Positions 16,922 to 17,117 of a stretch of 17,117 bases of DNA are shown here, piece by piece. The position numbers were made by a program, and so were the translations under genes. The stretch spans positions 1 to 17,117 of the forward strand of contig JAJRTK010000412.1 of NCBI GenBank assembly GCA_024278345.1, read 5' to 3'. Source of the DNA: a bacterium (GTDB lineage Bacteria > CSSED10-310 > JAJRTK01). Below the pieces are notes generated by a model. It searched no databases and was not told the origin of the DNA. It was given only the letters and a program-made list of their open reading frames with translations. Numbering within the stretch: position 1 is the stretch's first letter; each line of letters begins with the position of its first letter.

Positions 16922-16953
16922 CACCACCGGTTTGGCCTTGGTCATCGGTGGTG
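16922..16953. repeat. Eight-base inverted repeat (hairpin)
   Basis: CACCACCG (16922-16929) and CGGTGGTG (16946-16953) are perfectly complementary with a 16-base loop. A small GCC-TTC-GGC hairpin follows directly. Neither is followed by a T tract, so they do not look like terminators. Confidence 0.6.
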
Positions 16954-17022
16954 CCTTCGGCAGCTCTCGCTGTCGCTCGGACCCGGCCACCCGCCAAAAG
17001 CGCGAAGCGTACAATGATGTGG

Positions 17023-17117
17023 GTCCAGGGAGCGTGCTCCCTGGCGAGGTCCAGGAGCAGCGCTCCTGGCGGAGGTATGGAGGCGGAGCCTCCGCCGGGT
17101 TCCAGGGCTGGAAGCCC
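17023..17117. repeat. Tandem hairpin array, period about 26 bases, cut by window edge
   Basis: Four successive units start GTCCAGG (17023), GTCCAGG (17049), GTATGGAGG (17075) and TTCCAGGG (17100). Each contains its own palindrome: CCAGGGAGC/GCTCCCTGG (17025-17044), CCAGGAGC/GCTCCTGG (17051-17069), GGAGGC/GCCTCC (17079-17093), and AGGGCT/AGCCC, truncated at the edge. The stems differ between units but remain complementary. Confidence 0.8.

Follow-up and report, generated by a model that had tools for sequence, protein, structure and literature searches.

A tandem hairpin array forms the interior of a MITE whose ends match those of elements encoding DUF6399, its most likely transposase

The window, the whole 17,117-nucleotide stretch of DNA analysed here, closes with a hairpin array that forms the inside of a non-autonomous DNA transposon (MITE) broken off where the contig stops; the hairpins are transposon passengers, not a new RNA system. 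Taken together, the reading that we regard as very probable is a MITE interior carried along as a passenger, with a DUF6399 (PF19936) protein acting in trans on the ends. The window is itself an entire contig (C348) of a 6.06-Mb genome that is 88% complete and lies in 550 contigs (G000), and its last 184 bases, 16934-17117, match dozens of sites in that genome. The features located there are as follows.

16934..17117, + strand: MITE copy with a long-type left end, its right end lost at the contig end (own-genome search; left end located, complete copies elsewhere)
16934..16992, + strand: left terminal inverted repeat, long variant GGCCTTGGTCATCGGTGGTGCC...CCGGCCACCC (own-genome search; its inverted partner lies beyond the contig and is seen in other copies, e.g. 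L004 and L011)
16993..17022, + strand: leader 5′ of hairpin 1, common to the copies, with a related leader in copies of the second end type (copy comparison)
17025..17044, no strand assigned: hairpin 1, CCAGGGAGC-GT-GCTCCCTGG (hairpin scan, copy comparison)
17051..17069, no strand assigned: hairpin 2, CCAGGAGC-AGC-GCTCCTGG, mostly CTGGGAGC..GCTCCCAG in other copies, with paired changes (hairpin scan, copy alignment)
17079..17093, no strand assigned: hairpin 3, GGAGGC-GGA-GCCTCC (hairpin scan, copy comparison)
17102..17117, no strand assigned: hairpin 4, CCAGGGCT-GGA-AGCCC, its closing TGG past the contig end, with a T-A / C-G paired change elsewhere (copy alignment)

A hairpin scan placed four successive hairpins at positions 17025-17117, with perfect stems of 9 bp (17025-17044), 8 bp (17051-17069), and 6 bp (17079-17093), followed by a fourth from 17102 whose 3′ arm is removed by the contig end and for which the scan gives an alternative 6-bp stem at 17100-17113. 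When stems of 5 bp or more were counted, none of 2000 dinucleotide shuffles of positions 17015-17117 reached four hairpins (mean 0.63), confirming the proposal, made from the sequence alone, that each unit folds into a hairpin of its own. The whole window has only three hairpins whose stems reach 8 bp, two of them inside the array, and RNA folding of the array gave z = −2.55. The proposed period of 25-26 bases holds for the first two spacings between unit starts (17023, 17049, 17075, and 17099), both 26, and not for the third, 24, while the proposed GTCCAGG-like lead is found in every unit except the third, which reads GTATGG. Tandem Repeats Finder returned only 2.1 copies for the array. It had also been suggested that the array runs on past the window, which it hardly does, as in complete copies hairpin 4 is followed by a short spacer and then the terminal repeat of the right side.

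Searching the genome for further units with the core of hairpin 4 gave at least 168 occurrences at no more than two mismatches, compared to 0 for a reversed-pattern control, so that the case named in the sequence-only reading as telling against it, that only these few units exist, does not apply. The short end sequence occurs 250 times. Complete copies have 24-bp inverted ends, GGCCTYGGTCATSG...CGGCCACC, are most commonly 201 bp long, and contain no gene; a typical one runs for 201 bp from GGCCTCGGTCATGGTACCGGCCAC to its inverted form, and the left end of the window copy is longer by extra sequence between GGTCATCG and CCGGCCACC. Exact target duplications bound 19 of 38 candidate pairs (8 bp in 14, 9 bp in five), compared to expectations of 0.08 for 8 bp and 0 for 9 bp when flanks were re-paired between different copies, and the true fraction is higher because the 38 include a few chance pairings. 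In contig C5, a copy (L150, 335-535) sits within an ISL3 transposase gene, flanked on both sides by the duplicate GTTCAAGCG, and removing the element and one duplicate in silico restored the ISL3 open frame. Such inverted ends and target duplications, together with an empty site that can be reconstructed, are the signature of DDE-type transposition. The copies are thus those of a MITE: gene-less and multicopy, with terminal inverted repeats, target duplications, and ends that match an autonomous element, here the DUF6399 elements described below, and of the hosts suggested earlier for the array it is the "satellite of a transposase" that was found. No copy was detected in 97 other genomes, among them seven from the same phylum.

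Two other suggested hosts, retron-like RNA and REP-like units, found no support. Host-encoded structured repeats of the REP/BIME or retron type would share the high copy number and the palindromic interior, but not the inverted ends, the 8-9-bp duplications, and the reconstructable empty site, and an Rfam scan of the array gave no match; we consider an origin of this kind, in place of a DDE transposon, extremely improbable. REP/BIME units are short lone palindromes without target duplication, and were rejected as a class for copies with long inverted ends and duplications.

Of the at least 168 core matches, 23 of the first 30 sit no more than 250 bp from the end of a contig, and MITE copies explain the breakage of this MAG into contigs. 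The flanks of L007, L030, and L097 contain another repeat dispersed in the same genome (GGGACCTATCAGATCCGG ... CACCGGCA(A/T)..TGCCGGTG), and a sequence resembling the MITE leader (AAAAATGTGGGTCCAG) was seen 3′ of the interrupted ISL3 gene in C5.

The most likely mobilising transposase of the MITE is the DUF6399 protein, because a complete element on Thiodictyon plasmid pTs417 and DUF6399 genes elsewhere adjoin the same ends. The 1.9-kb pTs417 element codes for a DUF6399 protein of 558 aa (WP_100918590.1) and has matching ends on both sides, flanked by GTCCAACC as an 8-bp duplication; in Lamprocystis, a pair of ends lies 1.9 kb apart with a DUF6399 frame finishing just 5′ of the right end. Complete elements encoding DUF6399 proteins thus share both the ends of the MITE and an 8-bp duplication. 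An end of the first or second type lies within 140 bp of the DUF6399 stop at 13 of 17 loci, using an end pattern set loosely enough that the first end was matched in 5% of random stretches from these end-rich loci. The end is 6-7 bp past the stop codon at all six gammaproteobacterial loci and at all three in G003, a genome of the same phylum, whose DUF6399 loci each end in TG(G/A)CC(G/C)AAACGATGAACGAGGCC. In the genome of the window, contig C80 carries a decayed DUF6399 tail with an end close to that of the MITE, GTGGTCGGTACTATGACCAAGGCC, 68 bp past the stop. The four loci with no end within 140 bp are a truncated gene in own contig C387, own contig C507 and one G276 locus, both with only diverged second-type-like sequence, and a Crinalium gene with a second-type end about 170 bp from its stop. 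L276 and L277 (G003) match DUF6399 over only about 50 C-terminal residues beside a transposon end and are possibly deletion derivatives or contig-edge pieces.

Annotation lists DUF6399 simply as a family without known function, and the literature searched does not name it. Its aligned proteins from Gammaproteobacteria and cyanobacteria, where they span them, have D, D, and E motifs in common (DETF, SD..AL, and EGRNG) that would suit a DDE triad. We infer that DUF6399 proteins are transposases of the DDE type and that one of them moved these copies. A family labelled unknown thereby gains a probable function and a target-site signature. It was detected in three of 386 genomes, the present one included, and in four plasmid records, and was absent from viral contigs and phages, from 14 control genomes, and from four MAGs carrying the ends. 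All DUF6399 genes of the present genome are incomplete, with the first end type only at the C80 remnant, and no intact source enzyme was recovered from this 88% complete assembly.

The same MITE could be moved by another transposase, with DUF6399 next to the ends only through nested insertion, as several MAGs with these ends have no DUF6399 and the present genome has genes of ISL3 and IS1595, families that make 8-bp duplications. However, the own ISL3 and IS1595 loci are without these ends, the end follows the DUF6399 stop by 6-7 bp on both pTs417 and Lamprocystis, and a single 8-bp duplication bounds the pTs417 element, so that we consider a different mover quite improbable. As sources, own-genome ISL3, IS1595, and DDE_Tnp_1 were rejected, their loci being without these ends; IS256 is absent from this genome.

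Given mobilisation by DUF6399, the transposase would recognise the terminal inverted repeats in trans and move the MITE, leaving an 8-9-bp target duplication and spreading the hairpin array as a passenger. The stems would probably be kept self-complementary by palindrome-correcting copying (template switching between arms), and probably also because elements swap hairpin modules; weak selection in favour of a compact hairpin may or may not contribute.

Whether paired stems point to RNA function was judged from an alignment of 40 distinct copies, in which 98.4% of stem cells pair, compared to 33-54% in slid controls. The earlier claims of arms that change together, and of stems that vary yet stay complementary, hold between copies; a comparison of units within one molecule is no evidence by itself, the four units being different hairpins, and the variation comes from few events with no G-U bias toward one strand. 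Both-sided changes occur at four pairs of alignment columns (31-47, 32-46, 34-44, and 88-92). At 31-47 and 32-46 they occur together in the six copies of the window's subfamily and make hairpin 2 resemble hairpin 1, so that an exchange of blocks is no less likely than compensatory point changes, and clean double changes are seen at 34-44 (one copy) and 88-92 (six copies). These paired changes derive from only about three to four underlying events. One-sided transitions, read on the + strand, give G-U at four positions and A-C at four, a small sample whose equal split agrees with palindrome correction at the DNA level or with the absence of strong selection.

The hairpins of the same MITE could be kept by selection acting on an RNA transcribed from them, for instance through RNase processing or the stabilisation of mRNA, roles that have been argued for ERIC, Correia, and BOX elements. 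Such selection would agree with the high pairing, the four both-sided pairs, and the lower variability of stem columns (1.1 non-consensus letters per column vs 2.9 in the rest). Against it stand the small number of events and the G-U wobbles without strand preference, because of which RNA selection is not shown; in addition, the array has no Rfam family, and promoter and terminator scans of it gave no promoter-like site and no T-tract terminator. We therefore regard RNA selection as unlikely, and hairpins that covary in repeats are not in themselves a sign of RNA function. In L100, L110, L036, and L067, a further block (GCGGCCCAAGGGGCCGC and its neighbours) stands in place of part of hairpin 2.

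A second MITE lineage in the same genome has ends GGGTATCCACGTAAGGCGGGACA, its own hairpin series, and 8-bp duplications in four of five copies, and the DUF6399 stop in own contig C188 lies 12 bp before an end of this second type.

L066 993-1273, L070 1203-1469, L266 681-892, and L062 2637-2856 (own genome): second-lineage copies

The interior of the second type contains a module related to the first-type leader and hairpins (best E 7e-14), and a variant in which GATCCCGTTGCCC..GTTGCAACGGGA replaces one arm of hairpin 1 is present in both end types, indicating that hairpin modules pass between transposon types. The result is a BOX-like composite in which modules can be swapped while the ends stay fixed, a related hairpin module being found in two end types. 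A wider reading, which we put forward only tentatively, is that DUF6399 founds an undescribed IS family with at least two end types and with palindromic-interior satellites in several phyla, whose transposition or repair perhaps copies or favours hairpins and whose modules cross end types.

MITEs are a known kind of element, and the DUF6399 link and the hairpin modules common to two end types appear undescribed. As far as the available portions of the reports go, Chunjie of Geobacter (178-235 bp), QMITE2 of Coxiella (TIR 23-29 bp, DR 7-9 bp), Correia, and Nezha are, like the present element, short, gene-less, high-copy, and foldable in the interior, with inverted ends and target duplications, and those portions report no tie to DUF6399 (PMC10969869, PMC5896051). 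Unlike these, the present element has four separate hairpins and ends that occur in several phyla around unrelated interiors. Streptococcal BOX, in the part of its report available, likewise has a modular interior between fixed ends and a module common to two end types, as in S. suis the same boxB modules lie between two different pairs of ends (PMC3049150), but its sequence is unrelated and no transposase is reported there, whereas here there are target duplications and a candidate transposase. BrickBuilt of Porphyromonas is also a MITE with an internal tandem repeat (23-nt), although one of direct repeats of a single unit and not of four different hairpins (PMC4596501).

The same ends were sought in other bacteria by an end-pattern scan of GTDB contigs, which gave at least 56 stretches, so that the distribution is a lower bound, and most of the stretches listed are isolated, chance-like matches without a second end. 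Among the matches listed, true end pairs are present in a Blastocatellia MAG (8-bp duplication ATTTTTAG) and in deltaproteobacterium AUK140, a 51-bp palindrome in Lamprocystis, and single ends in a Desulfobacteraceae MAG and a Syntrophobacteraceae MAG. In searches of single genomes, Lamprocystis has 148 ends, the Syntrophobacteraceae MAG 26, and AUK140 19, compared to 0 to 2 for reversed controls; the end sequences, sought as text in the literature, gave no relevant match. The interiors between the shared ends in Blastocatellia, AUK140, Syntrophobacteraceae, and Lamprocystis are unrelated to that of the present genome and to one another and are mostly palindromic, tying palindromic repeats of several unrelated bacteria to one end sequence. 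Folding of 19 hand-picked interiors, six of them from the present genome, gave a mean z of −4.3 compared to −0.36 for 45 stretches drawn at random from those loci; most of the interiors fold strongly, a contrast that is no more than suggestive because of the hand picking. In Syntrophobacteraceae (L225, L228, and L252), elements with these ends enclose ACGGAGA/CTCCGTG, a repeat common among bacterial genomes.
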